Below, in pieces: positions 4,183 to 22,729 of a DNA stretch of 36,829 nucleotides. Numbering within the stretch: position 1 is the stretch's first letter; each line of letters starts with the position of its first letter. The stretch is from NCBI GenBank assembly GCA_903824965.1, contig CAIJYR010000094.1, positions 1 through 36,829 on the forward strand, given 5' to 3'. The translations under genes and the position numbers were made by a program. Below the pieces are notes generated by a model. The model made no database searches. It saw only the letters and a list, made by a program, of their open reading frames with translations, and was not told where the DNA came from. Source of the DNA: an uncultured Thiotrichales bacterium (lineage in GTDB: Bacteria > Pseudomonadota > Gammaproteobacteria > CAIRSR01).

Positions 4183-5892
4183 CTAGAAAGAGAGGATTGC
4201 TTGCAGCCAACCTCTCATTTTCTTGTGCTTACCGTCGCTATCGTCACCAGTGAGGGCATGGCCAGGGTTGCCATGGACAGTATGCGCAAGTGTGGCTTTG
4301 ATTTGCAGATTGGAGAAGGGAGACCAATTTACACCAATCCCTGCACCCTGTAGCCCATATTCATTGGGCTGATCGGGGGGGGCGAATCCTCGCCAGTTTT
4401 CCCACAGATGGTTGTTCTGCCGGATCCAACCGACGTCGTAGAACGTAAAAAATTGCGCTTTCTCAGTTGCTTGCCACTGCAACGCCAGATTGCTCATCCA
4501 CCCGTCATCTCCACTTGCCTCACTCGCAGGATAGGCACGAATGCCGTCCGGCCCTCCTAGGGAGAACTTTTCGGAACTGTCCAGGTTGGGACGCGCTGCT
4601 TGCACCTGGAGGTTGAGCGAGAGGGTTATTTTCTCTACGATGGGTTGATCTCGTCCTGCTGTGAGCACTGCTTTCTCGAAGACACCGAGGGTACGCGGGT
4701 TACTCGTGCCCTGGGAAAGGTTGAATTGTCCAAAACTCAGGGTGACGCCAAAATGGTTCGTTCCCCCATGATCTTTGCTCGTGGCTGAGAGACCGAGTGT
4801 GCCCACATCAATCCGTTTGTCGTCAGAAACAGTATGTGCTGCCCAGTCCACCATTCGTTTGTGATCCAAGGTCGCGCTGGCCGTGAGCGAAAAGACAGCA
4901 CTGCGTAGGATCGGGTACGCCGCAGTCATGCCAAGACTCCAGACATACCCATTGGGATCTGCGGCAGCAGAGGCACCACCGACCTTGTAGTCCAATGCAG
5001 TGCCATTGACGCCAAGCGTCAAACCGGAAACCCCCACAGGCATCGTGGTGGCGAGTCGTGTGTAGGTACTGCCCGAGGTTTTGAGTGCAGAGAGTGAAAA
5101 TTGCTCACCATGGCCGAGAGGGTCGTCCACAGAGGCCGAGAGCAGTGCACGATCCGCACCTGTAGCTTTGGATCCTGCCCGGTCAAGGGTGAGGCTACCG
5201 CTGACCAAGGGGCCGTCCTCGATTTTTAAAACGGAGATACTTTCGCTTTCGTTGGCTCCCGGGGACAGGGTACTGGTCGCACGCACGCCGGGCACTTCGT
5301 TCAGGATCATCACAGCCCCATCCAAAGTCAAAGGATGTAGCAAGGGATCCGACGGCGTAAGGCCCGCACGAGCGCGAACCAAATCAATCGCAAACTGTTG
5401 ATCCAATCGGGTTGTGCTCGATGGATCGACCTTGATCTGTCCCAAGCGGCCCTCGACCACCGTGATTTCGACTACGCCATTGTGTACCGTTTGTGGTGGC
5501 AGGTAGGCGTGTGCCAAATAATCGTGTTGGTGGTAATAATCGCCGATGGTACGGGCAGCTTCTTGCAGTTCGGCCAAGGTCAAGGCACGACCGACATACC
5601 CCTTGAGGAGTCCAAGCAATTCTTCTGCGGGGAAACGGGTTGCTTTGATTTGAAACGAAGTGACAAACACCGTCTGGCCCGTTTTTTCCGGAAGCGGTGC
5701 TTCGGGAGGAGGGGACTTCTCAGGTACCAAGGGTGCTGGGGCGGGCGCTTGCTGTCCCGTGGATCGTTCTATTTCGCGCAACAGCGCACCACCACCGCCT
5801 GGAAGGGAGGGGGGGGCTGCTAGGCTTGCGGTTGCCAACAGCAAACTCACCAAAACACCAGAGAAGCGGAACCAATGGATCATAGCTGTCAC
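4183..5892 (-). CDS. ShlB/FhaC/HecB-type two-partner secretion translocator (TpsB)
   Basis: A 569-aa outer-membrane protein. A signal peptide (FSGVLVSLLLATASLAA) is followed by a Pro-rich linker, a POTRA_2 domain (FQIKATRFPAEELLGLL to VVEGRLGQIKVD), a second POTRA/ShlB region and a beta-barrel. The barrel has the characteristic LGGPDGIRAYPASEASGDDG block, corresponding to the VRGY lid-lock region of Omp85/TpsB proteins, and ends in aromatic F. Such proteins thread a beta-helical TpsA partner through the outer membrane, powered by folding outside. The GTG at 5892 overlaps the TGA of the upstream FGE-like gene (GTGA), implying translational coupling; an in-frame ATG at 5883 is the alternative start. 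No TpsA with a haemagglutinin/TPS domain is present; the next gene encodes the DUF1566 protein, so the cargo is unknown. Confidence 0.92.
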   Translation of the reverse strand: MTAMIHWFRFSGVLVSLLLATASLAAPPSLPGGGGALLREIERSTGQQAPAPAPLVPEKSPPPEAPLPEKTGQTVFVTSFQIKATRFPAEELLGLLKGYVGRALTLAELQEAARTIGDYYHQHDYLAHAYLPPQTVHNGVVEITVVEGRLGQIKVDPSSTTRLDQQFAIDLVRARAGLTPSDPLLHPLTLDGAVMILNEVPGVRATSTLSPGANESESISVLKIEDGPLVSGSLTLDRAGSKATGADRALLSASVDDPLGHGEQFSLSALKTSGSTYTRLATTMPVGVSGLTLGVNGTALDYKVGGASAAADPNGYVWSLGMTAAYPILRSAVFSLTASATLDHKRMVDWAAHTVSDDKRIDVGTLGLSATSKDHGGTNHFGVTLSFGQFNLSQGTSNPRTLGVFEKAVLTAGRDQPIVEKITLSLNLQVQAARPNLDSSEKFSLGGPDGIRAYPASEASGDDGWMSNLALQWQATEKAQFFTFYDVGWIRQNNHLWENWRGFAPPDQPNEYGLQGAGIGVNWSPFSNLQIKATLAHTVHGNPGHALTGDDSDGKHKKMRGWLQAILSF

Positions 5893-6782
5893 AACATCAT
5901 CGTGAGACGGAAACCAAGGTTATCATAATGGTAGCTTGGACTCCGATGGGAACGCGCCGCAGAACGAACCCAGGGAGATTTATTAAACCAAGATCCGCCC
6001 CGATACACCCGCAGACCAAAATCTCGTTTGCTATGAGAGCACTCCTGTGCGGCTCGATTGTACTCTTTTTCGTATTCTGAGCATGTCCATTCCCATACAT
6101 TGCCGTGCATTTCGTACAAGCCCAAGGCATTGGCGGGAAAACTGCCCACCTCCTTTGTTTTGTGTATGGCAGGATCTCCGTGGTGCTCTGGAAGATGGCT
6201 GCTTTTTTTCATTCTGTCATCATCATGCTGTACTTGGTCAAGGGAGATGCTCATCCCAAAAGCAAAAGGGGTAATTGTCCCAGCACGACAAGCGTATTCC
6301 CATTCTGCTTCTGTTGGCAACCAATAAGAATGTCCTGTTTGTTCGTATAGCCACTCACAATAATCGAGCGCATCATTCCAGGTGACATTGATGACAGGGC
6401 GTCTGGCACGTCCCCAGCCCATATCTTGCGGGATTTTTTGTCCGGTAGCGCCACAAAATGCTTCGTATTCTGCAAAGGTAACGGCATACCGTCCCATCGC
6501 AAAAGGTTTCTGAATCGTTACAAGGTGTTGGGTCTCGTCTTGAAGGCGATCTTTTTCATGGGGTGGAGAACCCATCAAAAAGGTTCCTGGCGGAATCACC
6601 AACATCTCCGGCCCTGAAGTGCCGTCCTTGAGTACATCGCGAAAAACAACCTCACGCCTTAGGGATTCGGCAATGGTACGTTGTGCAGCTTGGATTTGTT
6701 CTGACGTCCAACCACTTTCAGGTGTTGGTACGGCATGTGCTGCATGGGACGTGGCCGATGTGTGGAGTTTTTTTATGCGCAT
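5889..6782 (-). CDS. FGE-sulfatase-fold (SUMF1/PvdO-like) protein lacking the catalytic cysteines
   Basis: A 297-aa protein with a standard FGE-sulfatase domain: MLVIPPGTFLMGS (about 60-72), KPFAMGRYAVTFAEYEAFC, RPVINVTWNDALDYCEWL, YWLPTEAEWEYACRAG, GLYEMHGNVWEWTCSEY, RVYRGGSWFN and the terminal LGFRL. True formylglycine-generating enzymes need two cysteines shortly before the AARS motif; here that stretch reads SPWVRSAARS with no cysteine, so sulfatase activation is unlikely. Roles known for cysteine-less relatives include PvdO-like and EgtB-like modification and binding domains. There is no signal peptide, so it is probably cytoplasmic. The ATG at 6782 has GAGG seven bases upstream. Its stop overlaps the tpsB start, so the two are co-translated. 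The RGGSW...GFRL tail also resembles variable proteins of diversity-generating retroelements, but no reverse transcriptase or template repeat is in the window. Confidence 0.88.
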   Translation of the reverse strand: MRIKKLHTSATSHAAHAVPTPESGWTSEQIQAAQRTIAESLRREVVFRDVLKDGTSGPEMLVIPPGTFLMGSPPHEKDRLQDETQHLVTIQKPFAMGRYAVTFAEYEAFCGATGQKIPQDMGWGRARRPVINVTWNDALDYCEWLYEQTGHSYWLPTEAEWEYACRAGTITPFAFGMSISLDQVQHDDDRMKKSSHLPEHHGDPAIHKTKEVGSFPANALGLYEMHGNVWEWTCSEYEKEYNRAAQECSHSKRDFGLRVYRGGSWFNKSPWVRSAARSHRSPSYHYDNLGFRLTMML

Positions 6783-7281
6783 GTAGAGACCTCAGAGGTA
6801 ACTGCTCAGGTACACGATAGACCATGGTCGAATCGCACATCTCAACAGTCTGTAGGCATAGCCACCGTGATGGGAGGGGTTGGCAGTGAGGGGGGCAAGA
6901 GCTGGTTTTGACTCGTTTCTTGCTTCCGTTTGAAAGGGCCTTTTATGGTTTGACAACGCTTTTTACCTGATCAGTTACAAAAAAGCCTATTCAGTCAAGA
7001 AAGCATCAAAAAAACCTCAAAGTTACAAGAAAGTCTATTCGGCCTAGAAAACGCAGTTAAGGCGCTCAAACAAGCTGGAAGCCTTGCTGCATAAGGGTTT
7101 CCGCAATTTCAGGTTGTTTGCAGAGCAGTTGGGGGCGTGCCACGCAATCATCTGTTTATGCACAGGAAAGATCACATTTCGGCATCCAACTGCGCTTTTT
7201 AGGTTCAGTCAAAAACAGCATCAAAAACAGAGTTCGCCTCTCCCAAACCCCCCTCTCCTCCGGAGAAGGGGCGATCCAAAA
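6783..7281. other. 499-bp intergenic region carrying repeats, no gene found
   Basis: It separates the ATP-grasp gene from the FGE-like gene. Short reading frames from every ATG I checked on both strands terminate within about 40 codons or shadow the FGE start. It holds a pair of imperfect 31-base direct repeats (about 6971-7001 and 7020-7050), A-rich on the plus strand, and a dispersed hairpin repeat at about 7205-7290. It is the natural place for a promoter for the FGE-like/TpsB pair, but no convincing -35/-10 or sigma-54 site was identified. Confidence 0.6.
6971..7050. repeat. two imperfect 31-bp direct repeats
   Basis: The copies share AGTTACAA, then AAAG(C/T)CTATTC, G(T/C)C(A/T)AGAAA. 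They begin at about 6972 and 7020, a spacing of about 48 bases, with AAAACCTCA between them. Paired degenerate direct repeats upstream of a minus-strand operon could bind a dimeric regulator or could be remnants of a duplicated segment. No matching pair was found elsewhere in the window. Confidence 0.5.
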
Positions 7282-8298: not shown

Positions 8299-8387
8299 GG
8301 TCGGTTGCTACCTTTGGTGTTGCTGAAGACGCAAAGATCAACGGGACGGCCCACGTTCCTGGAACCGCCCCGCAGTGAAGCACAGGC

Positions 8388-10310
8388 TTATTTGCCTTTA
8401 CTTTCCTTGTTGGTACTAAAATAATTCAGCAGTCCTTGCCGATCCAACAAGGTGAGGCGCTGTTCATCAAACGTGGTCAGTGAGGTTCGATCGGGATAAC
8501 GTGCAGCCAGCACCCCTTCTTGCGCCAGGAGATTGGTCTCTGCCTGTTTTGCAGCGACACGGGCCAAAGCCCACTGTTGCCGTGCGTGGTTCAGGGCACG
8601 AGCGGCGTCGATCACCTCAAAATAGGTCGCATTACCGATTTCATCCAAGCGTCTTTTGACCCGTTGATACGCTTCCTCCGATTGTTCTACTGCATGTTGG
8701 GTAGAGACCACCTGTTCACGCGTAGCAATGACTCCCACCACAGCCTGATCCACTGCGACTTGCACCTGATTCACCATATCCTGTTGGGAGGCTTGGCTGC
8801 CTTCAAGATTCGCTTCATCCAAGGCCAACTGGGCTTTCTTGGCGCGGTTTTTCCACGGATAGGCATAGTTCACGGCAAACGAATTGGAGAGTGAATCGGG
8901 CCTGAAAAGATTCGAGAGTGAATTGAAAGGGGACTTGTAGCCATACGGATTGCCCTGCTGACCCAGCTGTATCCCCATAGTCATGTTCAAATCTGGCCGC
9001 GTTTGATGACGACTGTATTCAGTCTGGATCTCACTGGATTCCAAGGCCACTTGTGCAAGGTGCAAGGCTGCGCGTTTTTCTTGCGCGGTACTCTGGGCTT
9101 TGGCTAGATCGAAACTTTCTGGTTTTTTGCCCAGTGCTTCCCAGAATCCAGCGGGTACGTAGATTGTATTGACCGCCAAGGGATCCTCAGAGATCAAGAC
9201 CGCCAACGTGTTGGATGCACTGAGAAAAGCACTCCGTACCTGTTCTTCGGCGAGTGCTGCCTGATCCACTTCATGTTCGACTTGGGCTTTGTCGTACCGC
9301 GTAGCCGCACCCTTTGCGAACAGTTCCTCGGTACGTTGATCCAGTGTCTTCATCAAATCAAGATTTTGGCGAGCGACCGCCAGGTTTTCCAACGCACCCA
9401 CCAGGCTCCAGTAAGCCGTGTCCACACTCAAGAGGGTACTGTCGATGGCTGCTTTCAACGTCCAAGAAGCCATTTCTTTTTGTTTTTTTCTGAGCAATAT
9501 CGCGGTTTCATTGGCCGCCTTAGGACCAAAATCCTTGGAGCCTGGGATCGGCACCGACAAGTTCATCATGAACGAACTCGACCAATCAGCGCCAAGACTC
9601 AGTCCGTTTTTGTAGTAGACCGCTTGATCCTTGGTCGTGACCCCAAGGCTCACACTGCTCCCCCACGGCAACTGCTGATCGACAGACACGGAATATTGCA
9701 AACTCTTCGGATCAGCCGTATTCATCCCTCGGGAAACACCCGTGCTGGCGTAGTTAATGCCAGTCAATGGCCCTTGACTTGAATAAAGGTTCTGAAAGAC
9801 GATTTGCGTTTCATAGTACGTTGCATTGGGTGGTGCTGGTAATACAATAGGCTGTGATACGGAGGTTTTCAATGTCACCGTTCCCACAAAGGTACGATCG
9901 TAGGTTCTGTTGTCATTAAAGGTCACGCCCACCGTAAAGACCGGATCGAAAACCGCTTCTGCTTCGCGGAGGACTTGTGTGGTTGCCGCTTCATTGCCGC
10001 TGATGACGAGCAACGACAGGTTGTGTCGTAACGCTTCTAGGGCAGCCTCACGCGCATCGATGGTGCGCACGGTACGCCCTCGCAATGCCTCCCACGCACC
10101 GCTGTCTTTCCCTGGTGCTTGGATGAGGGCTTGGCGTTGACGCTCAGGGTCGGGTGCGTTGGGATTCAACAGCTCTCCGAGGGTGACGGTCTTCGCGGCG
10201 GGAGGTTCTTCTTTCTTGCCCACGGGTTGGGCTACGGGTTGGGCTGCGGCGGCCATGGCGACAGCCAGGCCGATCAAAACACCCATTGGTTGACCAAAAC
10301 GGTATTTCAC
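8388..10310 (-). CDS. TolC-family outer-membrane channel, third paralogue
   Basis: A 640-aa protein with a signal peptide (MGVLIGLAVAMAAAAQPVA) and TolC/OEP organisation: two long coiled-coil repeats with barrel strands, for example LDLMKTLDQRTEELFAKGAATRYDKAQVEHEVDQAAL and the matching C-terminal helix VKRRLDEIGNATYFEVIDAARAL. It is longer than classical TolC (about 430-490 aa) because of an N-terminal domain shared with its two upstream paralogues: LRGRTVRTIDAREAALEAL, then NLSLL and EAEAVFDPVF. It starts at GTG 10310 in a GTGA overlap with the preceding tolC stop, so translation is coupled. It would be the outer-membrane exit duct for the HlyD/ABC exporter. Why three different versions exist is unknown. 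Confidence 0.93.
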   Translation of the reverse strand: MKYRFGQPMGVLIGLAVAMAAAAQPVAQPVGKKEEPPAAKTVTLGELLNPNAPDPERQRQALIQAPGKDSGAWEALRGRTVRTIDAREAALEALRHNLSLLVISGNEAATTQVLREAEAVFDPVFTVGVTFNDNRTYDRTFVGTVTLKTSVSQPIVLPAPPNATYYETQIVFQNLYSSQGPLTGINYASTGVSRGMNTADPKSLQYSVSVDQQLPWGSSVSLGVTTKDQAVYYKNGLSLGADWSSSFMMNLSVPIPGSKDFGPKAANETAILLRKKQKEMASWTLKAAIDSTLLSVDTAYWSLVGALENLAVARQNLDLMKTLDQRTEELFAKGAATRYDKAQVEHEVDQAALAEEQVRSAFLSASNTLAVLISEDPLAVNTIYVPAGFWEALGKKPESFDLAKAQSTAQEKRAALHLAQVALESSEIQTEYSRHQTRPDLNMTMGIQLGQQGNPYGYKSPFNSLSNLFRPDSLSNSFAVNYAYPWKNRAKKAQLALDEANLEGSQASQQDMVNQVQVAVDQAVVGVIATREQVVSTQHAVEQSEEAYQRVKRRLDEIGNATYFEVIDAARALNHARQQWALARVAAKQAETNLLAQEGVLAARYPDRTSLTTFDEQRLTLLDRQGLLNYFSTNKESKGK

Positions 10311-12268
10311 CGCTGCGTTCCTCCATTGTTAGCGAACATACCCAACACACCGGCCGCTGCCAACCGTTGTACTCGTTGTCGATCCAAGGGGGTTTCTGCG
10401 GTCACTTCGCCGTAACGACGGGGTAATAGACCCGCAGCAGCAAGCAATTGTGCCCACGATTCGCGGTACGAAATCTCTGCATCCACTTGTGCCAACTCGG
10501 CCTGTAGCACCGCTTGACTCTTGCTGACGATCTCATACTCCGTGACGGTACGTGCCTGTTGACGGTCTTTTGCTTTGCCATAAGCCACACGGGACAGTTC
10601 AGCCGCTTTTTTGGTCACTGCCAGTCGTTCACGGTTTGCGAGCAGCCCCGCAATGCTGTCATTGATGTTTTGTGCCACACTCAACTGGGCTTGTTCCCGC
10701 TGCGCAGTGCTTCCGGCCAACGCATGGTTGGCAGCGTCGAGATTTGCTTTAGCGGCTCGATTACCCACAGGGTAGGTGTAGTAAAGGCCATAGCTCTGTG
10801 TAATCGCATCGGGGGAGGCCAAGTTTCGGAGAGAGTCTGGATAGCCACCGTAGCCGAAGATTTGGTTACTCTGCGCGAGCGTAACACTTGCACTCACGCG
10901 CAGATCAGGACGCAGACCATTGTGGCGTTGACGCTGGACAAGCTCCGCCATTTCCACTGCCACTTCTTGGGCTTGCACGCTCGGACTGCTGAGGCGTGCC
11001 TCCTCGACAATCGTCATCCAGGAGGGGTCTTCTTTGAGCTTCAGTTGACCACTGTACCCTGTGGGCAGCAACAAATCGGCCCCATCCATGCCAATCAGTG
11101 CCTTTAGGGAGGCACCGGCACTGACAAAAGAAGCCCACGCCTGTTCTAGGGACGCCTGAACCTGTGCTTGCTGGGCATCCACCCGTGACTGCTCATAGAC
11201 GGTCACGGTTTTGAGATCCAGCAAGCGATGGGTGATGGCGCTGAGTTTGTCGATCTGCTCGGCATTGTCTAGATAGGAGACCAAGTACCGCAGGCTTCTG
11301 ACCAGCTCCCAATAGGCGAGATCCACTTGGGAGAGTGTGCTGTTCAGGGTGGTTTGCACCTGCCAGTAGGTATAGCGATCGGACAAAGCGGCCAGGTGGC
11401 GATTCACGTTGTCGCTGTTTAGATCCCCAAAACCCTTGGTAAACGGCACTGGTGTCGAAAAGGAGGCCGAGAGGTTGGAGACCCAGGGGAGCTTATAGGG
11501 CAACTGAACCCCTTGAAACTCGAAGAAGGTTTGTTGCACGGTGGTCTGTTGTGCAATCTCGAAAGAACCTCCCCAAGAAAGTTCCTGATCCAACCGGAGT
11601 TGATAGCCACCACCGCCTGCATAGGCAGAAGCGGTACTCGCCTGGATTTTTTTGGTGTAATACCCTGCGGGGCGTGCTTGGTTGAGCGTAAGAGAAGCAA
11701 TGGGGTACGCAAGACCGAGCTGGGTGCCTATTAGAGAGTGGGAACTTACGGGTTGTGGATCAACGCAATTCGTACCCTGGGCATCACACGCCGACGCTGG
11801 AACCTCTTTCGAATACTCCTGGTCATGTGTCGAGCGGTCATAGGCCTCTTGTCCACTTCCGCTGACAGTGAGTCGGATCACGGGATCAAAAACGGCCTGT
11901 GCTTCTTCTAGGACGGCATCCGCCACCCGCTCAGAGATTTTACCCTGCAGGATGGATAGATTTTTTTCGATCGCACGCAATGCTGCTTGATGGGCATCGA
12001 TGGTCTTCCAAGTGCGTCCTTTGAGAGACGCGGGAAGGCCCTTGGTGGCCGTGTCGATGAGAGCGTGCAATCTCCGTGCGATCGTTTCTTCCTGTGCGCG
12101 TCCGGCACCGTCTTCCATGGCCATACTAGCGTCCAACACGCTGCTTTGAACCGTATTCTGTATGGTTTTTGGTTTTTCTTCTGAGCCAACGACGGCCCCT
12201 GCACTCAAGGCGATCGCGATCCCAATCGCTATGTTTTTCCCAAAACGGCCCTTCGATGCTGGCTTCAT
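10307..12268 (-). CDS. TolC-family outer-membrane channel, second paralogue
   Basis: A 653-aa protein with a signal-like N-terminus (IAIGIAIALSAGAVVGS) and the same N-terminal module as its neighbours (LKGRTWKTIDAHQAALRAIEKNLSIL, EAQAVFDPVIRL). Two OEP repeats follow: LSQVDLAYWELVRSLRYLV with a long coiled-coil to about residue 360, and a second from about 480 to the end (TVTEYEIVSKSQAVLQAELAQVDAEISY). The extracellular or barrel part carries a CDAQGTNC pair that could form a disulfide loop. The ATG at 12268 overlaps the TGA of the first tolC gene (ATGA) with GAAGG about 10 bases upstream, and its own stop overlaps the start of the third. Tight coupling of all three argues for balanced synthesis. 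Confidence 0.93.
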   Translation of the reverse strand: MKPASKGRFGKNIAIGIAIALSAGAVVGSEEKPKTIQNTVQSSVLDASMAMEDGAGRAQEETIARRLHALIDTATKGLPASLKGRTWKTIDAHQAALRAIEKNLSILQGKISERVADAVLEEAQAVFDPVIRLTVSGSGQEAYDRSTHDQEYSKEVPASACDAQGTNCVDPQPVSSHSLIGTQLGLAYPIASLTLNQARPAGYYTKKIQASTASAYAGGGGYQLRLDQELSWGGSFEIAQQTTVQQTFFEFQGVQLPYKLPWVSNLSASFSTPVPFTKGFGDLNSDNVNRHLAALSDRYTYWQVQTTLNSTLSQVDLAYWELVRSLRYLVSYLDNAEQIDKLSAITHRLLDLKTVTVYEQSRVDAQQAQVQASLEQAWASFVSAGASLKALIGMDGADLLLPTGYSGQLKLKEDPSWMTIVEEARLSSPSVQAQEVAVEMAELVQRQRHNGLRPDLRVSASVTLAQSNQIFGYGGYPDSLRNLASPDAITQSYGLYYTYPVGNRAAKANLDAANHALAGSTAQREQAQLSVAQNINDSIAGLLANRERLAVTKKAAELSRVAYGKAKDRQQARTVTEYEIVSKSQAVLQAELAQVDAEISYRESWAQLLAAAGLLPRRYGEVTAETPLDRQRVQRLAAAGVLGMFANNGGTQR

Positions 12269-14382
12269 GGTTGGGTACCTTCTATGCCCTGTGCCATACG
12301 CAGGAGCGCATAGGCCTGACGCCGCTGCACGGCGGCTTGGACCATTGCGAGTTGCGCTTGGTTGAGATCACTCAGCTTTTGGAGCAGCTCAAACTGCGTC
12401 ACCTGTGCGTTGTTCATCACGGACGCATTGTTCATCACCGGAAGGGATCCTGGCGGATTGGCGTGCGGGCTTACCGATACAGTCGTCTGCGTCGACGGGG
12501 TGGATTCAGCCTCGTCCTGTGGGGTGGGCAATGGATTCATCGGCGGAGCGCCAGGGGGTATCGCCCCTTTGATGACCCCGGGTGGGCGCGGCTGCACGGT
12601 GCCCACGATCCCATCGGAACTGGTCGGGATCGCCGATGTGGAGGGGAGGTGGTGGGGTGGCGCATTGACTTGCTGGAGTTGCTGTTGTTGGCGGCCGGTG
12701 GCTTTGTCATACGAGGTACGCGCCAATTGTAGCGTAGCCTGCGCAAACCGCATTTGCGCATCGCCGCTACGCACGGCCGTAATGGCGTCTTGGACATCCC
12801 TGGTGACTTGTTGGCGTGCTGTCACCAGCGCGTCTTCTGCCTGTTGCTGTTGAATCCGTGCGCCAGCCAAGCGTGCTTTTGCATCGTGACGACCGAAAGG
12901 GTAACGATAGAAAACACCGATGGCCAGATTTCCGTAGTCTGGGGTCTTCAGATTGGAGACTGCTTCTCCCATAGACGGGAATCCAACCGTTGTGTTGACC
13001 TCTCCGATGCTGGTCGAAAGGGTCAGTGTAATATCTGGACGCAGTTGGTTGTGATAATAACGCACATTGGTAATGCCCGATTCGACCGCTGCCGCCTGAG
13101 AGCGCAACTCACTGCGTTTCTCGACCGCAGTGGCCAATGCCTGATCGACCCCCACGGTACCGATTTCTTCTTGGGTAGCATCGTAGGCAATGGGTAGGAT
13201 CAGGGTATTGGATTCCATGCCCAACAAATAGCTCAATCGATCGGAAGCTTGTACCAAATTTTTCCAATTGACTTCCCAATTCCCCTGTGCGGAGGCCAGA
13301 TTCGCATTGGCTTGGGTCATATCATACTCTGTACGCAATCGATTGCGGTAGAGTCTTTCTACTTCTCTTTGTATATCGCTCAGGGTTTGCACATATTCCT
13401 TGCCATAGACAACCCCCCAGACTTGCTGTACCAGGTTCCAATAGGCCTGCTCAACGCTCCCAAGGGTCTGGTTGAGTGCGGTTTGGTAATCGGCTTTTGC
13501 TTTTTGGTCGGCAACCTCAGCGAGTGATAACGCAACGGACGAAGCGGCACCTTCTGCGCCGAATCCTTTGGTGTAGGGCAGTGGAGTGGAGAGCTGCACA
13601 CTCAGGGTGGACGTCCACTTGAGTTTATCGCCCATGGGGACGAGTGTTTCCCCAGGGGGAAGGACATACCCTGGTGGACTGTTCAGCACTGTCAGACCCG
13701 TTGAGAACGAACTACCCCAACCAAATGCTTTGCTCACACCAAACGAAGTCTTCCAAGATTTCGTCCACGAGGGCGAATCGTAACTCGCGTTTTCGGACTT
13801 GGTGGCGTAATAAGGAGTTCCCAGGCATGTCATTTGTGCGAAATCGATGCTAATACAACCGGCCGAATCGGGTTGACCCGCCACCGACGAACCCGCTTGA
13901 CCAAACTCAACGCCAGTAGGGGCACTCATGCGCCACCGCGTGATGCTATCCACCCGATCAAAGGTTCGGGTACCGGAACCGGAAAGCGCAACCTGAAGGG
14001 TCGGATCGAAAGCAGCTTTGGCACCCACGACATTTGCGGCTGATGAACCCTGCGCTTCTACCAGGGCACGCAGGGCAGGATTTTCGCTTTTTGCCCGTTT
14101 GAGTGCTTCTGATAACGCAAGGGGGACGACCGTACGTTGATGCAACACCCCGCGCAGACCGGTCGTTGCGCCGTTCAGCGCACCCTCTACGACCTTTCGT
14201 GCTTCATCGGCATCGAACAATCCAATGTGTGCTGCTTCTTGGGTAGCGGGGGGGGTTGGCGGCTTTGGTTTTGCCTTGGGCTTTGCCGATCCCACGGCAT
14301 CCGTCTCCGTGTACAGCAGCCCCGCGAGGGACAACATGAAAAAAAACCGACCGCCCTTCGTGAATCTCTTGCGGGAACGCAT
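12265..14382 (-). CDS. TolC-family outer-membrane channel, first paralogue, with Pro-rich insert
   Basis: A 705-aa member of the trio, with a signal segment (FFMLSLAGLLYTETDAVG) and the shared N-terminal module (LHQRTVVPLALSEALKRAKSENPAL, GAKAAFDPTLQV). The OEP repeats are recognisable (LGSVEQAYWNLVQQVWGVVYGKEYVQTL and MRFAQATLQLARTSYDKATGRQQQQLQQV). Unlike its paralogues it has an insert of about 90 residues rich in Pro, Thr and Ser (about 560-650) before the last helix, including a short duplication (VMNNAS VMNNAQ). The insert would fall at the periplasmic end of the coiled coils, where the channel docks to HlyD. GAG lies seven bases before the ATG at 14382. The FHA gene ends 62 bases upstream, so it probably belongs to the same operon. 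Confidence 0.92.
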   Translation of the reverse strand: MRSRKRFTKGGRFFFMLSLAGLLYTETDAVGSAKPKAKPKPPTPPATQEAAHIGLFDADEARKVVEGALNGATTGLRGVLHQRTVVPLALSEALKRAKSENPALRALVEAQGSSAANVVGAKAAFDPTLQVALSGSGTRTFDRVDSITRWRMSAPTGVEFGQAGSSVAGQPDSAGCISIDFAQMTCLGTPYYATKSENASYDSPSWTKSWKTSFGVSKAFGWGSSFSTGLTVLNSPPGYVLPPGETLVPMGDKLKWTSTLSVQLSTPLPYTKGFGAEGAASSVALSLAEVADQKAKADYQTALNQTLGSVEQAYWNLVQQVWGVVYGKEYVQTLSDIQREVERLYRNRLRTEYDMTQANANLASAQGNWEVNWKNLVQASDRLSYLLGMESNTLILPIAYDATQEEIGTVGVDQALATAVEKRSELRSQAAAVESGITNVRYYHNQLRPDITLTLSTSIGEVNTTVGFPSMGEAVSNLKTPDYGNLAIGVFYRYPFGRHDAKARLAGARIQQQQAEDALVTARQQVTRDVQDAITAVRSGDAQMRFAQATLQLARTSYDKATGRQQQQLQQVNAPPHHLPSTSAIPTSSDGIVGTVQPRPPGVIKGAIPPGAPPMNPLPTPQDEAESTPSTQTTVSVSPHANPPGSLPVMNNASVMNNAQVTQFELLQKLSDLNQAQLAMVQAAVQRRQAYALLRMAQGIEGTQP

Positions 14383-14444: not shown

Positions 14445-15884
14445 CTACCTACGTATCCAATAATCAACGATCTTGATGTCATTGCTGTCGATGTCTTTCG
14501 CCATCCGACCGAAGAAGGCATAGTGGCCTGAGAGCTGCTTATCATAGTTCTGCTGGCATTGTACGAGTTTATCTTTTGATCTCTGAATATCACCCAGTAC
14601 AATCGCGCTGGGACGATCAGCCACCGCAGTCGAACCAGTGTTTTTAAAACGCAGGGCAAAATCTTTGATTTGTATCAAGGCATCGGCCAATCTTAGCAAA
14701 TGCACCACCTCATTGCCGACAGCGTCGCCCGTAATCTCAGGACAAACCGATTGAGCCGCTCCGCCCTGGAGGTTTTCCATTTCTGGGAGGGCTAATGCGC
14801 CGATGGCACGCCCTGCATCCGTTCGCACACGCAACGCTTTTTGTATATCACCAAGGGCGAATGCCGCAGCCAGATCACGCTCGAACAACCAGAACAGAAC
14901 CTGAGCCTTCCTTTCACGGAAACCTTCGGTATTCTGCGGATAATCATGGATCAGGAGATCCGCTCTCGCCAACAGAGTACGCAACTGATCCCGTTGATCA
15001 TCGCTAGCCGTGCTGTCTGTATGACGCACTGACTCATGGGCATCAAGAAACTCATTGAGTTCATTCTGATATTTTTTCTCTTGGTCAACGATGACTTGTG
15101 CACTTTGGTATACGGAATACAGATACCCCAGTCCACCCAAGACGAGGATCATCAAGAGTGTACCCACGGCACTCTTGGTTTTTTGCGATACCCGTTCTCT
15201 GGTCGATGCCTGTTCAACCGCCTTCCGATGTGCCGACTGTGGTTCAGGTGGTTCTGGAACATCGGCGGTTTTCGGGTGGTGCATGACCAAATGGATGGCT
15301 TTCAAATCTTGCTGGTTGTTCTGATCCCGCGCAAACGGCATCATGGTGCGATCGCTCTGCAACTCTTCCTCTGTCACGGGGGGAGCGACCTTGCGTGCAG
15401 GAGGAGGCGCTTTCGGCTTCGGGGCCGCTTTGGGTTGCATCACAGTCCTGTCGACTGCATCGCTCCCCACTTCTTCGTAACGGAACTTCAAGGAGGCAAA
15501 ACAGACCTCATCGTGTGACTTGAGGATCTTGGGCGATTCAGGCGGTATATTTTCTGAACCATTGATGGTGGTTCCGTTGCTACTTCCGCGATCTTTGACG
15601 AGCCAATGACCTCCGCTCGAAAAGAGCTCCGCATGCACACGGGAGAGGCCCTCATAGGCAATGGGGACAACGTTTGGCAGCGGTGGGGTAGTGTCCTGCT
15701 TACGTCCAATCACAACGGGCTTGCCGGTCAACTCGATGGACAAACCAGTGCCGACGCATCCCGCTTTTTGGGGTTCCAAGCAGACAAGACGAGCCTGCGG
15801 TGGTGGGGCCGACCCCTGTGGAACCGCACGATGGGTACCCGATGCGGTCATCACAGTCTGATCAGAAGTATTGTCTGAAGTCAT
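14445..15884 (-). CDS. FHA-domain single-pass membrane protein
   Basis: A 479-aa protein. Residues about 45-137 form an FHA domain with the core phosphothreonine-binding residues (G60-R61, S81-x-x-H84, SSNGTTING 101-109). A Pro/Ala-rich linker leads to one transmembrane helix (239-258, AVGTLLMILVLGGLGYLYSV). The C-terminal 220 residues are predicted helical and coiled-coil and are not recognised. Three similar motifs, DQTVM (8-12), DRTVM (145-149) and DRTMM (178-182), flank the FHA domain and could be phospho-acceptor sites read by it or by a partner; no kinase gene is present in the window. The ATG at 15884 is preferred: GGAG of the structured leader ends seven bases before it. An in-frame TTG one codon earlier is less likely. 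Its position between transporter and channels suggests a regulatory or assembly scaffold. Confidence 0.88.
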   Translation of the reverse strand: MTSDNTSDQTVMTASGTHRAVPQGSAPPPQARLVCLEPQKAGCVGTGLSIELTGKPVVIGRKQDTTPPLPNVVPIAYEGLSRVHAELFSSGGHWLVKDRGSSNGTTINGSENIPPESPKILKSHDEVCFASLKFRYEEVGSDAVDRTVMQPKAAPKPKAPPPARKVAPPVTEEELQSDRTMMPFARDQNNQQDLKAIHLVMHHPKTADVPEPPEPQSAHRKAVEQASTRERVSQKTKSAVGTLLMILVLGGLGYLYSVYQSAQVIVDQEKKYQNELNEFLDAHESVRHTDSTASDDQRDQLRTLLARADLLIHDYPQNTEGFRERKAQVLFWLFERDLAAAFALGDIQKALRVRTDAGRAIGALALPEMENLQGGAAQSVCPEITGDAVGNEVVHLLRLADALIQIKDFALRFKNTGSTAVADRPSAIVLGDIQRSKDKLVQCQQNYDKQLSGHYAFFGRMAKDIDSNDIKIVDYWIRR

Positions 15885-15888
15885 CAAT

Positions 15889-15981: not shown

Positions 15982-18900
15982 TCACAGGCTCAGCGGTTTC
16001 AGGCCAAATTGTTTCTCGGCCAACTGATAGTACATACCCTTGTACCCCATTTCACGCAAATAGTCTGGATCGGTGAGTTGGTCATGTGTACCTTTCTCCT
16101 GCACTTTCCCATCGTGAATAAAACAAATCATGTCGGAATTCCGAATGGTACTCAACCGATGCGCAATAGTAATGGAGGTACGTCCTTTGATGATGTTGTC
16201 GATGTTTTCCTGAATGCGCATTTCTGATTCGTTGTCGAGGGCACTGGTGGCCTCATCGAAGATCATGATTTTGGGACGGCGATAGAGTGCGCGTGCGATA
16301 CAAATGCGCTGCCGCTGCCCCCCTGAAACCCCCATGCCTTTTTCACCTACGGGGGTTTGGTACTGTAAGGCATATTGTCGAATAAAATCATCCGCACCGG
16401 CCAGGCGAGCGGCTTCACGAACGGCCTCCATGTCCGGTTCTGGATCGCCAAGTGCGATGTTTTCGGCAACGGTTCCGGAGAACAAGAAGCTGTCCTGCAA
16501 AACGACACCGATGTTGCGGCGCAGGGAGGAGAGATCAAGTGCACTGACGGATTTGCCACTGATCAGGCATTCTCCCCGTTGTGGCATATTAAAACCAAGC
16601 ACCATTTTGGCCACGGTGCTCTTTCCACATCCCGACGGGCCAACGAATCCAACCCGCATACCCGGCTCAATGTCGAGGTTAAAACCACGCATGATGTGGT
16701 TCTCTTTGCCGCCAAGCACGTAGGAAAAATAGACATCCTTAAATTTGATGGCACCATCGGTGGTGGTGAGGACAGCGGGCATTGCCTCTGGGGTGGTAAT
16801 CGGTTCTTGTTCTGGTTTGACGTTTAGTACCTCGCCGACCCGATCGACGGAAATACGTACTTCTTGGAGATTGTTCCAAAGACCAATCATCTGCTGTACT
16901 GGACTGATAACGAGACCCATGAGCATATTAAACCCCATGAGTTCGCCGACCGTCATCTGGCCCGCCATCACTTGGTTAGCGCCCACGCCTAAAACACAAA
17001 CCGTCATCGCCAACCCCAAGATCTGGAAGAGTGTCTGCGAGGTGAGGCCCAGTCGCTGTGAGGCAAACATTTTGTTGACATTGTCGACAAATACATTCTC
17101 CCACCGAGAACGTGCCATATATTCGTTAGAGGTCGCCTTCAGGGCCTCAATTCCATTCAGAGACTCGATCAGATAAGACTGCGCCTGAGATCCGGCCATA
17201 TAGATCTGTTGGTTGATCTGCTTCATTTTCGGCGTAAAATAAAGCGGAATGGCGACATAAAACGGAACGAAAAACAATACAATAGGTGCCAACGCTTTGC
17301 TATAAGCGAACATCATCCCGAAGTAAAGGATCACCATCAAGGTGTTCAGGATGACAGTAATACTCGATCCTGCGATAATCCCTCGAATTTTGGAGTTTTC
17401 ACCAAAACGAGCGAGAATATCCCCTTTATTTCTCGTAAGAAAAAAGCTGATCGGCAAACTCAGAATGTGCCGATAAAACTCAGACATGAGCCGCATGTCG
17501 ATGCGTGCAGTGGTATAGGCCAGCAAAATATTCTGCGTAATGGTGATACCTGAGGTCATGACCGCTACCAAGACCATGCCACCCAGCATCATATTGAGCA
17601 AATTGACATCGGCATGAACAACCACTGTATCGACGATGTTCTGGATGAACAACGGACTTGCTAACCCCAGCAGGTTGATGGCAAGCGCCGCAAGCAATGC
17701 CTCGCCAAAATAGGCTTTATGAGGCAGTAGATACTCTACGAAGTGCCAAATGGGCTTTTCGGGGACATACTGCTTCTCGAACCGTTTGGTGGGTTCTAAA
17801 GAAATGAAAACGCCACAATCGTTTTTGTTTTCGACACCTGGCACTTCTGCAGCGGTCCAGCCTTGTATAAACTCTTCACGCGACAATTTTTTGATTTTAC
17901 CACCATTGGGATCAGCAATACGAACAGAGTTCTTGCCAACCTCGAACAGCACCGCATAGTGGTAGGATTCCCATCCGATAATGCCTGGAAGTTCTAGTTT
18001 ACGCAATTCGTCATAGGGGATGGCATAGCCTTTTGCACTAAACCCTAGCAACTCGGCACCATTGATGATCGAATTGGGCGTAGTCACGCTGGTAGAGAGA
18101 TTGCTCAGCTCACGGATCTGCGCCATGCTGAAATGTTTGCCGTAGTGCTTGCTGATCATTGTGAGGCATGCAGCCCCACAATCCGATTCATCGCCCTGTG
18201 CAACGGTCGCAAAGCCAGAACTCTTCTTGGTGGGCTTCTCTTTGAGGGCCAGAAAATCCGCTTCGGTGACGGCATCGGTCAGCTTGATGCGTTGATCCAC
18301 CCCCTCAGCGCGAGAACGTGCCTGCGTTTCACTCTTTTCTTGATCTTTGAAGTAGGCCAGGCGCTCTACCAGTTGGCTGTGCAGGCGTGGGTTCAATTCC
18401 AGGATTTTCTGTACTTCTGGGGTGTAAATGACATAGACCACGATGTCCGTCACGGCCTTCGCGCTGTGGAGATGCTTGCCCGCCGATCCCGATTCATTCA
18501 GTGCTGCTGTTTCCCCGAGGAGGCCGAGTGTTCGCACCCGATCCAGCATCACTTCCTCACCCACTGCTGTCTGCCTGACCAAATCCACCACACCCGACTC
18601 GATCAGGTACAAGCGAGGGTCGTGCTCGCCTTGCTTAAACAACCAGGAACCCTTCGGTTTTGGCTTGACACCCAGCGCATGCACAATGTCAGAAAAAACG
18701 TGTGGGTCACACTGAATGCCCTCTAGCAAGCCGCGCACGAGCGTGCCAACCTTCAGCTTAGCCATTTGCGAGGTAAAGATACCCGTTAAATGATGGTTGG
18801 CGCGTTGCAGTGCTTGCGCTTTTTGGGCGGACAACCAAAACATCTGGGTAGGAACGCTGGCAACCACCTGTTCCTGCCATTCTGCCTCCTGGATGAGCGA

Positions 18901-19161: not shown

Positions 19162-19167
19162 GATAGT

Positions 19168-20523
19168 TTATTCTTCGTCTTGACCAAAGAACTTCGAAAC
19201 GGGTGAGAAAAGCAATTCTATGATTCGTTTTGACCCGACTTTTATCTCAGCGGTGCCTTCTAGACCAATCTGCAGAGGGGTCTTTCTGGAAGAGCCTTGA
19301 CGCACAACAAAATTACGATCCAGGGAAATCTTGATTACGTATTTAAGCGACTGCCCTTCCTGCGTTGGACGGTTGGCAATGTCGCAGATATGTCCACCCT
19401 GTGACCCATAATCCTGGAAAGGATATGCGAAATATTTGATTCTCACCTGCTCATCGCGCCTCAGGTGACCAATGTCCTTATTGTTCACCAATACTCGCCC
19501 TTGTAGTGCTGCACTGTTTTTGACGATGGTCACCAAGGGGGTGGCAGCGGAAACGATCTGCCCACGGGTGACGTTCTGCTTCACAATCACTCCATCGAAG
19601 GGACTGCTGTACTCCGCCATATTTTCTTTGTACCTAACCCCTTCCACCAGATGCTCGCCCCCCGCAATGCGACCTTTGAGTTCTTCTATGCTGTGGTCCA
19701 TACGCCCCAGATCACGCTCCTTGCGACCTTTCAGTTGTTTCAGCACATCTTGCAGTTTGTCGGCAGTTTGGGATTTTGTGCTGTCTCGTGCGGTTTGTGC
19801 ACTGCCAAGGGCGATCCTGATTTGATCCACTTGGGATTTTGCGTCATCAACCCCCTTGGCGGCATCATTGAGCTGCTCATGGGCGCGTTCGTACTGATCG
19901 ATCGTAATGTCACGCGAATTGTATAGGCTTTGTTGCCGATCGAATTGCGTTCTGGCAAGGGCCAACCGCTCGGTTTGCCGCTTTAATGCACCCTGCGCTG
20001 TCGCCAATTGATCGGTAATCTGCCGAACGGAAGCTTCTTGCTGTGCGAGCACTGTTTCATGGCTTTTGCCAAAATTATCCAGATCGTATTGGCTTTGCTG
20101 AATTTGGTGATCCAGTTCGTCTGCCAATTTGTCACGATCTTTGATCATGGTATCCAATTGCAATCGCATCGAATCATGTTCAGAGAGGGTGGAAGCCCTA
20201 ATTTGTTCCTGTACCCGAACCAAGGGATCGCCTGTATGGACGATATCATTCTCTTGGCGCATCACCTCGTACACCAAACCACCTCCCACGGCTTCAAAGG
20301 TGTAGGACTCGCGTTCGAGGGTGAGGGGGGCGGTTACGATGTCATCTTTCTTAGCCCAGAAGGAGTAGACCAGTGCCACGAACACGGTGATGGCAACCAT
20401 ATAGATGGGGCCGCGCAGGACAAATCCAGGGGGTGTGTACAGGAGCCGTGCGGCTTGGAGCGGATGTTTCTCAGCCGATGCAATGACTTGCCTGATCTGA
20501 ACGGGTGCCTTCTTGAGAGCCAT
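19168..20523 (-). CDS. HlyD-family membrane fusion protein
   Basis: A 451-aa periplasmic adaptor anchored by one N-terminal transmembrane helix (about 37-57, RGPIYMVAITVFVALVYSFW). A beta strand and lipoyl half-motif follow (GGGLVYEVMRQENDIVHTGDPLVRV, about 84-108), then a long coiled-coil hairpin (about 115-305), the second lipoyl half (YSSPFDGVIVKQNVTRGQIV) and a beta-barrel domain to the C-terminus. It would bridge the C39 ABC transporter to the TolC channels. Spacing to the ABC gene is six bases. The ATG at 20523 has only a weak GGA upstream; the 112-base gap before it (20524-20635) could hold a promoter, with TATGAT at about 20555 (minus) a weak -10 candidate. Confidence 0.93.
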   Translation of the reverse strand: MALKKAPVQIRQVIASAEKHPLQAARLLYTPPGFVLRGPIYMVAITVFVALVYSFWAKKDDIVTAPLTLERESYTFEAVGGGLVYEVMRQENDIVHTGDPLVRVQEQIRASTLSEHDSMRLQLDTMIKDRDKLADELDHQIQQSQYDLDNFGKSHETVLAQQEASVRQITDQLATAQGALKRQTERLALARTQFDRQQSLYNSRDITIDQYERAHEQLNDAAKGVDDAKSQVDQIRIALGSAQTARDSTKSQTADKLQDVLKQLKGRKERDLGRMDHSIEELKGRIAGGEHLVEGVRYKENMAEYSSPFDGVIVKQNVTRGQIVSAATPLVTIVKNSAALQGRVLVNNKDIGHLRRDEQVRIKYFAYPFQDYGSQGGHICDIANRPTQEGQSLKYVIKISLDRNFVVRQGSSRKTPLQIGLEGTAEIKVGSKRIIELLFSPVSKFFGQDEE

Positions 20524-20635
20524 GGGGTCACGTTCCGCATGAGGTAGAGTGCTGGATCATACACAAAACGCCGTAAAAGGTGTAGGGTTGCAAAAAGATG
20601 CAAGGATGCGCTGAGGTTGCTATGCTCTCTGGTCG

Positions 20636-21385
20636 CTATACCTTCGCAATGCTTACTTGGTGACGCAGCCAGTCTTTGAACAACCGATCACGGATATAAC
20701 GCCGTAGGGCATCGGTCAGATCGGTTTGCCCACAGGAGTCTATTCGACAGATACGCCAGTAGGTTCCTTGACGAAAAGGGCCGACAATGTCACCCACTTT
20801 GGCGGCAAAGATTTCTCGATCCATTTCTGCCGGCAGCATACCCTTGCGCACTGCGCCTAAGTACCCCCCGTAAGGCCGAGTTTTCTCATCAAGAATCGAT
20901 TCTCGCGCCAAATCTTCGAAGGTTTGCTGTTTGCTCGTGATTTTCGACAAGACCTCTTTCGCTTTTTGTTCACCCGATACTGCAATACAAGAAAGCGAAA
21001 CAGTTGCATAATTCTCTTTGTCTTGCTCGTAGGCAAGATGTATCGTAGCTTCGTCTACCACATGTTGGGACAACCACTCCCGATGCAATTCTTGGATGGT
21101 AGATGTTTTCCACTGCTCTTCGGTAATTCCATACCAACGGCAATAGCGAACAAAATTCGCATTGTCTTGCAATCCGCCCATGGTTCGTTTTCGCTCTAAC
21201 CAGGCATCCCGATCTTTCTCTGGAATGCGCACACCAAGCTCATCTAGCTTCGTATTAACGACCGCAAATTCGATGAGTTTATAGATCGTCTCACGAAAAG
21301 TACCAGTCGTTTTAAGATAAACCAAAACATCTTCTGCCGTAATCGGTTGACCATGAACACTTGTGATAATATCATTCAGTTTCAT
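20636..21385 (-). CDS. parvulin-like (PpiC/SurA-type) peptidyl-prolyl isomerase, cytoplasmic
   Basis: A 249-aa protein. The N-terminal 120 residues are helical and SurA-N-like (MKLNDIITSVHGQPITAEDVLVYL). Residues about 125-220 form a rotamase domain with the parvulin pattern: VSLSCIAVSGEQKAKEVLSKI, FEDLARESILDEKTRPYGGYLG, MDREIFAAKVGDIVGPF and YWRICRIDS. No signal peptide or lipobox is seen, so it should act in the cytoplasm, probably holding or folding the exporter's substrate or leader peptide. From memory, stand-alone PPIases of this kind recur beside HetC-like exporters and HlyD proteins. AGGA lies ten bases before the ATG at 21385. It is the first structural gene of the export locus, 57 bases after the regulator's stop. 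Confidence 0.88.
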   Translation of the reverse strand: MKLNDIITSVHGQPITAEDVLVYLKTTGTFRETIYKLIEFAVVNTKLDELGVRIPEKDRDAWLERKRTMGGLQDNANFVRYCRWYGITEEQWKTSTIQELHREWLSQHVVDEATIHLAYEQDKENYATVSLSCIAVSGEQKAKEVLSKITSKQQTFEDLARESILDEKTRPYGGYLGAVRKGMLPAEMDREIFAAKVGDIVGPFRQGTYWRICRIDSCGQTDLTDALRRYIRDRLFKDWLRHQVSIAKV

Positions 21386-21442
21386 ATAATATTATTCCTA
21401 TCTGCAAGAATAATGGTTGTGCGAAAAAGGCATGGGTGTTGA

Positions 21443-22729
21443 TTATTTTACTCGATAATCGCTTGCATCCAGCTCATGTTTCTGTAACAATTGGTATACA
21501 CGCGATCGCGACAGACCCAGTTCGTTGCATAACGTACGTATGTCTCCATGACAACGGGACAGGATCGCGATCAGGTGGTTCCGTTCACTGCCGTCCCGTA
21601 TCGCCCTAATGCCGCTAGCATTATTCACTTCTCCTATCTTCTGCTGGTAGCGGGCAGGCAGATCTTCCAAAGTCAGTAATGACCCATTGTAAAGATACAC
21701 AAGGTATTGACACAAACTCTTTAACTCTCTAATGTTTCCAGGAAAGTCGTAGTCATGGCAAAGAAAATTGTGCAAGTCTGTGTGAAATTCCGGGTGTATT
21801 AAATCATGTGCAGTACAGGTATGATGAATAAAATGCTCCATCAAAATAGGAATCTCATCGCGCCGATCTCGTAGTGGAGGAATCTCCAGGTTACAATCAC
21901 TCAAACGATAGAACAAATCTTCGCGGAATTTACCGCGACTGACCATTTTCTCTAGCTTCCGATTGGTGGCAGCGATCACGCGCGTATTGATGATCATTGC
22001 TTTATCAGAACCTACCCGCTGGATTTCACCCGATTCGAGAACGCGCAGTAATTTTACCTGGGCGCTCATTTCTAAATCACCGATTTCATCCAGAAAAATA
22101 GTACCCTCGTGAGCCTCTTCAAATTTTCCACGACGATCAGAGACTGCCCCAGTAAAGGCACCCTTAATGTGACCAAATAGTTCAGACTCAATAATCCCAC
22201 TCGGAAAAGCACCACAATTTACCGCGACAAACTTATTGCGACCACTGTTCATGTGAAGAATGCGTGCAAACAATTCTTTACCCACTCCTGTTTCACCCTG
22301 CAAGAGCACACTTAAGCGTGTCCTCGTCACCCTCGCAATGATTCGTAGCAGGGCACGGATCTGCTTGCCATGACCAAGGATCCCCTCAAATTTTAAATCT
22401 TTATAGTGGAAATCAGGGATACCCCCCTTGATCCCGTTGGCAAAGCGATGCACCGCAGCAGATTGCGTTTGCGAAGCAAGGTACATCAGCGCCCCACGCA
22501 ACAGATCCATCTCATGCAAAACGGCCAAGTGTCCATCAAAACCAGAGACTTCCAGGAGCTGTATTTTGAGTGATTCGATACGGGCCATGTTCTCCGCGAG
22601 CAACTCGGTCACCTCACCGTGGTTGCCAGGAAAGGGTTGTTTGTCGAGAAAAGACACGTATCCAAGATCGACAGGATCCGTCGTGTGGTGCTGGTGAGAA
22701 TCGGCAGACATTTTTCGATCAGACATCAT
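21443..22729 (-). CDS. sigma-54-type AAA+ transcriptional activator (no receiver domain)
   Basis: A 428-aa protein from the ATG at 22729, chosen for GGAGG six bases upstream; the open frame extends further without a ribosome site. Residues 1-110 are a variable sensory region with no recognisable receiver, GAF or PAS. Residues about 112-340 are a sigma-54 interaction AAA+ domain: Walker A GETGVGKE (145-152), GAFTGA loop (190-195), Walker B IFLDEIG (211-217) and the arginine-finger region FREDLFYRLSD. The C-terminus is a Fis-type HTH (DIRTLCNELGLSRSRVYQLLQ). With an intact GAFTGA it should drive sigma-54 promoters. It is the natural regulator of the downstream export genes, but no good GG-N10-GC promoter was seen in the 57-base gap. 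Its upstream neighbour is divergent. Confidence 0.92.
   Translation of the reverse strand: MMSDRKMSADSHQHHTTDPVDLGYVSFLDKQPFPGNHGEVTELLAENMARIESLKIQLLEVSGFDGHLAVLHEMDLLRGALMYLASQTQSAAVHRFANGIKGGIPDFHYKDLKFEGILGHGKQIRALLRIIARVTRTRLSVLLQGETGVGKELFARILHMNSGRNKFVAVNCGAFPSGIIESELFGHIKGAFTGAVSDRRGKFEEAHEGTIFLDEIGDLEMSAQVKLLRVLESGEIQRVGSDKAMIINTRVIAATNRKLEKMVSRGKFREDLFYRLSDCNLEIPPLRDRRDEIPILMEHFIHHTCTAHDLIHPEFHTDLHNFLCHDYDFPGNIRELKSLCQYLVYLYNGSLLTLEDLPARYQQKIGEVNNASGIRAIRDGSERNHLIAILSRCHGDIRTLCNELGLSRSRVYQLLQKHELDASDYRVK

Follow-up and report, generated by a model that had tools for sequence, protein, structure and literature searches.

The 36,829-nt contig CAIJYR010000094.1 of an uncultured Thiotrichales bacterium (assembly GCA_903824965.1), referred to at its full length as the window, carries a tight minus-strand series of nine genes extending from a sigma-54-dependent activator to GRASP1, a homologue of ATP-grasp peptide ligases (22861 to 7282). 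Between them lie genes for a peptidyl-prolyl isomerase (PPIase), an HlyD-type adaptor, a C39-domain ABC exporter, an FHA-domain protein and three TolC paralogues. Together with a second ATP-grasp homologue, GRASP2, and a family of Gly-rich cargo peptides, both encoded on other contigs of the same genome (G000), this operon probably forms a graspetide-like system in which a dedicated exporter takes the peptides across both membranes. In the following, L and G numbers denote the loci and genomes compared.

The co-occurrence of exporter, GRASP2 and cargo was surveyed in 369 gammaproteobacterial genomes, with E < 1e-113 defining a close exporter. Such an exporter was present in seven genomes of the class. 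GRASP2 was found in all seven, and cargo, after filtering by C-terminal position, in six of them, compared to none of the 362 genomes without the exporter in either case. Fisher tests, which ignore the tree, yielded 2e-12 for cargo and 6e-15 for GRASP2, and 1e-7 and 6e-10, respectively, when counted by family (family count taken as about 182). The cargo pattern had matched 18 genomes, of which six, all bearing the exporter, had the motif three residues before the stop and were accepted as real. The other 12, with one match each to a looser pattern, were rejected as chance hits, as none lay three residues from the stop in a Gly-rich open reading frame (ORF).

Comparable results were obtained for nine exporter genomes outside this set, that of L037 included: GRASP2 was present in seven, and cargo was recognized by ORF reading in six of those seven. 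GRASP2 was not found in G376 and G377, two draft metagenome-assembled genomes (MAGs) with the exporter, and a search for it on plasmids gave no match. Since the nearest genus and family members of the own genome (G001–G003) carried no close exporter, GRASP2 or cargo, the distribution of the system is patchy.

The same data bear on whether the locus encodes an ordinary type I or bacteriocin exporter for some other cargo, with the peptides co-occurring merely through shared ancestry. HlyB, NHLP and bacteriocin exporter models do all match the ABC part. However, cargo and ligase accompany the exporter across several families and in other classes, and the neighbours G001–G003 lack all three, so that such a coincidence appears very unlikely. 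Membership in NHLP/NHLM bacteriocin export was likewise rejected, the exporter scoring 508.8 bits against a cut-off of 853.3 for TIGR03796.

The cargo family consists of Gly-rich peptides of 77–97 residues, encoded in several relatives by small ORFs beside the GRASP2 gene. The motif K-x-GGDA, towards the N-terminus, is common to its members, and DNT-x-[IL]-G-x-[IV]-N stands exactly three residues short of their C-terminus (alignment A4). A DNA pattern of the C-terminal motif matched six times in the own genome, compared to zero matches for the reversed pattern; contig C46 holds five intact genes in a tandem array, and contig C142 (L049) a single decayed one. In the stretch 804-2788 of L049, a short contig, the decayed copy follows two ORFs that, by reading, resemble pieces of a tyrosine-type integrase. 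None of the tested peptides matched a Pfam or NCBIfam model, and a search of the open literature did not turn up their motifs.

The first-pass annotation of the window had proposed a regulated system for exporting modified peptides and had remarked that its cargo was missing from the obvious places. This was confirmed: the small ORFs of the window contained neither KxGGD nor DNTSIG motifs and all failed a filter for Gly-rich sequences, which excluded a cargo gene inside the window. The postulated cargo itself has now been matched by a candidate peptide family encoded elsewhere in the own genome.

A cargo gene was located beside or near GRASP2 in L025, L027, L037, L095, L096, L124, L125, L126, L127 and L128. 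These neighbourhoods weigh on the suggestion that the Gly-rich proteins are a secreted silk- or amyloid-like matrix, GRASP1 and GRASP2 acting on something else and co-occurring with them as the locus moves as a unit. The peptides are indeed very rich in Gly, Ala and Ser, reach up to seven copies per genome and were modelled as disordered (AlphaFold pLDDT 46.6, uninformative), and GRASP2 lies apart from the own cargo genes. In most other genomes, however, cargo genes adjoin GRASP2 or lie close to it, and both track the exporter across families; this reading is accordingly held to be improbable. As a separate observation, similar proteins of 235–243 aa are encoded on the flanks of the peptide genes of G135 and G247 (L096:2201-2932, L096:4206-4913 and L025:1024-1731), the L025 copy matching an acetyltransferase model.

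A marked difference was observed between the two ATP-grasp homologues. GRASP1 was predicted by AlphaFold with a pLDDT of 82.5, and the top PDB match in Foldseek was the graspetide ligase PsnB (7drp, E 1.6e-19, TM 0.73–0.78), which was also recovered by a profile of GRASP1 relatives (E 3.4e-12). The earlier ATP-grasp assignment of this 338-aa protein is thus upheld by profile and structure, although no Pfam match was obtained and the similarity to TIGR04187 is weak. In all eight aligned members, Arg replaces the lysine of the KP motif, and the DxR triplet is absent (alignments A1, A3). Of the proposal that the window ATP-grasp protein modifies the cargo, the conservation of its gene with the exporter stands, but a role as an active enzyme is doubtful, the ATP-binding Lys and DxR being gone.

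GRASP2 retains KP..G(V/I)GSTR and DSRT in eight of eight aligned copies, the own one included. Its best models, in scans of relatives, were TIGR04187, TIGR04184 and TIGR04185 (MvdC/MvdD type), all scoring well below the curated cut-offs, and its profile matched PsnB with E 2.4e-27. The DSR triplet aligns with DFR of PsnB, and the DFR motif is described as critical for graspetide synthetases (PMC13097080). Because the motifs are intact in GRASP2 and lost in GRASP1, we take GRASP2 for the catalyst; GRASP1 is probably a pseudo-synthetase, perhaps a partner subunit.

The kind of linkage formed is a separate matter. GRASP2 also matches the RimK and MptN glutamate-ligase models, the conserved peptide element is the extreme C-terminus, and the acidic residues on offer for several rings are few. 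It could accordingly be argued that the peptides are exported by this machine while GRASP2 adds amino acids in the manner of RimK, or forms another C-terminal amide, instead of cross-links. Since the best profile matches of GRASP2 are graspetide ligases and its DSR aligns with DFR of PsnB, we regard such an addition as unlikely.

The PPIase scored 36.9 bits against TIGR04500, short of the cut-off of 180, with 91.8 bits for its relative in L022. By reading, it has no evident signal peptide and is probably cytosolic. In the rosaritide pathway, described in 2026, the TIGR04500 PPIase MirC is required by the TIGR04187 synthetase and copurifies with it, a peptidase-containing ABC transporter (PCAT) being encoded alongside (PMC13097080). 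By analogy, the window PPIase is a candidate MirC-like partner of a graspetide-type ligase.

All genes named in the first-pass annotation were found again by Pfam, NCBIfam and ORF reading, all on the minus strand (Table 1). Their junctions are tight, with overlaps of 4 bp each between TolC3 and TolC2 and between TolC2 and TolC1, and a spacing of 6 bp from HlyD to the ABC gene. The real start of the activator likely lies near 22729, at the ATG given by the earlier annotation, which matches the length of relatives; orthologues of the activator head the operon in L024, L025, L029 and L037.

Table 1. Genes of the operon and its downstream side in the window, and the remote GRASP2 gene.
Feature	Position	Strand	Evidence and remarks
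Sigma-54-dependent activator	21443..22861	-	Pfam Sigma54_activat, E 4e-64; GAFTGA present; start codon uncertain
PpiC-type PPIase	20636..21385	-	Pfam Rotamase; best NCBIfam model TIGR04500, E 2.4e-9, below cut-off; position conserved
HlyD-type periplasmic adaptor	19168..20523	-	Pfam HlyD_3, TIGR01843; conserved beside exporter
Exporter, 1059 aa	15982..19161	-	Pfam: two cNMP-binding domains, Peptidase_C39, ABC_membrane, ABC_tran
FHA-domain membrane protein	14445..15887	-	Pfam FHA, E 1.7e-11; position conserved; PP2C genes adjoin relatives
TolC paralogue 3	12265..14382	-	Pfam OEP; positional orthologue across genomes, tree
TolC paralogue 2	10307..12268	-	Pfam OEP; tree
TolC paralogue 1	8388..10310	-	Pfam OEP; tree
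GRASP1, 338 aa	7282..8298	-	Graspetide-ligase fold (AlphaFold/Foldseek, profile); conserved operon end
FGE-sulfatase-domain protein	5889..6782	-	Pfam; judged outside the system
TpsB/FhaC-type outer-membrane protein	4183..5892	-	Pfam ShlB, POTRA_2; operon-side homologues in one other genus only (L025, L029)
GRASP2, own copy	G000:C216:19265-20191		Second, intact ATP-grasp homologue on another contig

Full-length relatives of the exporter, about 52–62% identical to the window protein, were found in Skermanella, a Methylococcales MAG, a betaproteobacterial MAG, Candidatus Magnetocorallium, other alphaproteobacterial MAGs and a MAG labelled Planctomycetota. The order activator–PPIase–HlyD–exporter–FHA–TolC3–TolC2–TolC1–GRASP1 is whole in L025, L029 and L037. 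The contig of L027 ends inside HlyD and keeps the remaining genes in the same order, and L028 has a partial order in which TolC1–3 and GRASP1 are divergent from HlyD and the exporter. In other genomes, including Skermanella and Magnetocorallium, the genes are split into at least two blocks. The nine-gene order thus recurs in beta- and gammaproteobacteria, with scattered blocks in others, and because it is found in other families and another class, the arrangement is not due to chance.

A comparison of neighbourhoods had been suggested to determine whether the ATP-grasp and FGE genes are conserved with the exporter, a lack of conservation being named as refuting; the refuting outcome was obtained for FGE and not for the ATP-grasp. 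GRASP1 accompanies the exporter wherever that part of the locus is readable, which ties the peptide-export system to the ATP-grasp peptide-ligase family, as proposed; being kept with the exporter across genomes, GRASP1 belongs to the system. The FGE gene is not found beside the operons of close relatives, and genomes that lack the exporter have just as many FGE genes: G001–G003, with no close exporter, have 4–12 of them, and G147, with the exporter, has zero. FGE genes do occur in the wider surroundings of the Burkholderia/Caballeronia clusters and close to the peptide of Magnetocorallium, which we attribute to the general abundance of the family. On the strength of neighbourhoods and genome counts, the FGE protein was ruled out as a member of the system and, with it, as a modifier of the cargo. 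That the window ATP-grasp and FGE proteins should both modify the cargo, as first suggested from two downstream genes on the same strand, is barely credible when the former lacks the ATP-binding and DxR residues and the latter is not conserved with the exporter.

Downstream of GRASP1, a gap of 499 bp precedes the FGE gene, which overlaps the TpsB/FhaC-type gene by 4 bp; a gene for an Lcl_C-domain protein follows. The FGE and TpsB/FhaC-type genes look like a separate unit, split by the locus boundary that had been drawn at 5889. No TpsA partner was identified for the TpsB/FhaC-type protein (4183-5892). An FhaC homologue, 32–35% identical, adjoins the sigma-54 activator in G135 and G247 (L025, L029). 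On the other side of the operon, a divergent TPR/AAA protein is encoded at 22881-24890, and a 1345-aa AMP-binding/PP-binding/hexapeptide protein at 25264-29301.

With a C39 domain, an ABC membrane part and an ATPase in one protein, the exporter has the PCAT architecture (Pfam). Its C39 residues C328, H401 and D417, which we take from general knowledge of the family to be the catalytic triad, are intact (alignment A5). In several close relatives the Cys is replaced: by Asn in L025 (with His to Arg), Ala in L033, Ser in L034, Thr in L035, Asn in L036 and Asn in L040 (with His to Tyr). Owing to this loss, leader cutting cannot be a general feature of the family as judged from these sequences. Peptides from the genomes with Cys-lost exporters still bear the GG motif, so GG may serve recognition as much as cutting. 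A second Cys, four residues further on (C332 in the window), is present without exception in the 16 exporters aligned. Three further C39-domain proteins are encoded on the own contigs C138, C118 and C182 (L002–L004), unlinked there to peptide genes.

Signalling genes were repeatedly encountered in the vicinity. Several genomes have a PP2C gene close to GRASP2 or cargo (L024, L027, L125 and L126 tested), and in one genome a Ser/Thr kinase adjoins GRASP1 and TolC. In Skermanella, a fusion of a class III nucleotidyl cyclase and FHA is encoded between the peptide and FHA genes (L124:10713-11633, L125:9896-10792), with PP2C adjacent in L125.

In the tree of the TolC paralogues, all TolC1 sequences lie beyond a well-supported branch (SH-aLRT 99), the TolC3 sequences on another, and the TolC2 sequences between them. 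The phylogeny indicates that the triplication predates the beta/gammaproteobacterial split of the system and that all three copies have been retained. TolC is a trimer, and the simplest guess is therefore a hetero-trimer of TolC1, TolC2 and TolC3; three separate ducts, or one duct with accessory proteins, are possible alternatives. A literature search for three-TolC or heteromeric TolC systems returned nothing relevant.

Promoter regions of the cargo genes were scanned for sigma-54 sites with one ad hoc score, and simple shuffling served as the control. In front of the first own cargo gene, a sigma-54-like site was observed at 51 bp from the chosen start (shuffle p about 0.01); the lead cargo genes of G135, G247 and L037 also have such a site ahead of them. 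The single high score in G234 reads as an upstream coding stretch. Control of the cargo genes by sigma-54 is suggested, and only suggested, by these sites.

For the graspetide-like system as a whole, we infer the following course of modification and export. Cytosolic GRASP2 would bind precursors made from the C46 genes, with the PPIase, and probably the inactive GRASP1, serving as partner or chaperone subunits. GRASP2 would then link side chains or make some other ATP-dependent acyl modification; the likeliest sites are the Asp-Asn-Thr close to the C-terminus, which hardly varies, or the Asp of GGDA. Next, the C39-ABC exporter would recognize the K-x-GGDA region and, in the own organism, probably cut after GG, whereupon the peptide would pass through HlyD and an outer-membrane duct of the three TolC paralogues. 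Transcription would be controlled by the sigma-54 activator, and export probably gated through FHA/phosphorylation and a nucleotide signal. The fully elaborated version, in which an active/inactive ligase pair and the PPIase act as a factory for long Gly-rich graspetides that leave through an FHA/kinase/cyclase-gated exporter with degenerate cNMP domains and a TolC hetero-trimer, is proposed tentatively and is rather doubtful in its entirety. By analogy with microcins and known ribosomally synthesized and post-translationally modified peptides, an extracellular competitive or signalling role may serve as a first guess, held with low confidence.

Several observations weigh against this interpretation. 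In the own genome, cargo, GRASP2 and operon are mutually unlinked, and in G147, which has exporter and GRASP2, no cargo was found next to GRASP2 or by looser patterns. The precursors are poor in acidic residues, with one or two conserved Asp and one conserved Thr/Ser in A4, and inspection of that alignment revealed no classical graspetide leader motif (PFFARFL, Phhx(1,2)h). In KxGGDA, GG is nearly invariant, and the hydrophobic positions of usual GG leaders are absent. The Cys-lost exporters, among them the Skermanella pair, are still 53–56% identical to the window protein. No good sigma-54 site precedes the lead cargo gene in G104, G319 or G234. At what we presume to be the phosphate-binding cassette of the cNMP domains, a conserved Trp takes the place of the Arg in domain 1 (in the close family), and domain 2 has a residue other than Arg. 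Canonical cyclic-nucleotide gating, implied by the cNMP modules that had been thought to gate export, is thus doubtful, notwithstanding the cyclase–FHA fusion of Skermanella and the ppGpp binding reported for the similar exporter HetC (PMC10986499), and the usual binding of cAMP or cGMP by the exporter is unlikely.

As to significance, an orphan exporter can now be assigned a cargo family and an enzyme by name, which makes the system testable, and the neighbourhood rule leading from exporter to GRASP2 to peptide is usable for mining further systems. If the modification is real, graspetide-type chemistry would reach long Gly-rich proteobacterial peptides with a complete two-membrane export route, and a second PPIase-partnered synthetase, together with a candidate hetero-trimeric TolC, would be at hand. 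The combination of a graspetide-type ligase with a PCAT is already known; the cargo family and the machine were not found in the literature searched, graspetide-survey supplements aside.

Among the systems compared, the Burkholderia/Caballeronia plasmid clusters L021 and L022 share FHA, HlyD, PPIase, exporter, sigma-54 activator and a PP2C-type gene with the window system (TIGR04500 was scored for the PPIase of L022 only). Their exporter is about 35% identical to that of the window, they have one OEP/TolC-like protein, and no GRASP1 occurs in the stretch read. A small ORF of L022 near the PP2C-type gene (17172-17495, minus strand) has an ordinary-looking GG leader, MATLTITDLAFDRRLDRTAMSAIAGG, and a similar ORF occupies the same place in L021.

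Class II microcin export (CvaA/CvaB/TolC) relies on canonical GG leaders, unmodified or siderophore-modified cargo and one host TolC. The window system resembles it in its Gly-rich, presumably secreted peptide, C39-ABC exporter, HlyD-type adaptor and TolC, and differs in having ATP-grasp, PPIase and FHA proteins. A cyclic-nucleotide-binding-like domain joined to C39 and ABC in one protein also appears, by description, in HetC of Nostoc PCC 7120, which acts in heterocyst differentiation, has an unknown cargo and is reported to bind ppGpp; the abstract of that source mentions no ligase or three-TolC operon (PMC10986499).

The closest solved structures to GRASP1 and GRASP2 are those of plesiocin PsnB and microviridin MdnB/MdnC, with which GRASP2 shares KP..G and DxR. 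Unlike in plesiocin and microviridin, the cargo has no recognizable leader/core pattern, and scores are well below curated cut-offs.

The closest experimental precedent is rosaritide from Micromonospora, with the precursor MirA, the TIGR04187 synthetase MirB, its TIGR04500 PPIase partner MirC and the PCAT MirD (PMC13097080), although what it teaches can be transferred to the window system, known from genes alone, only by analogy. In each, a ligase of graspetide type goes together with a PpiC-type partner and an ABC exporter that contains a peptidase. Rosaritide comes from a Gram-positive organism and has one short precursor, whereas the precursors of the window system are long, Gly-rich and multi-copy; beyond rosaritide, the window system has a second, probably inactive ligase, HlyD, three TolCs, FHA, a sigma-54 activator and cNMP-like exporter domains.

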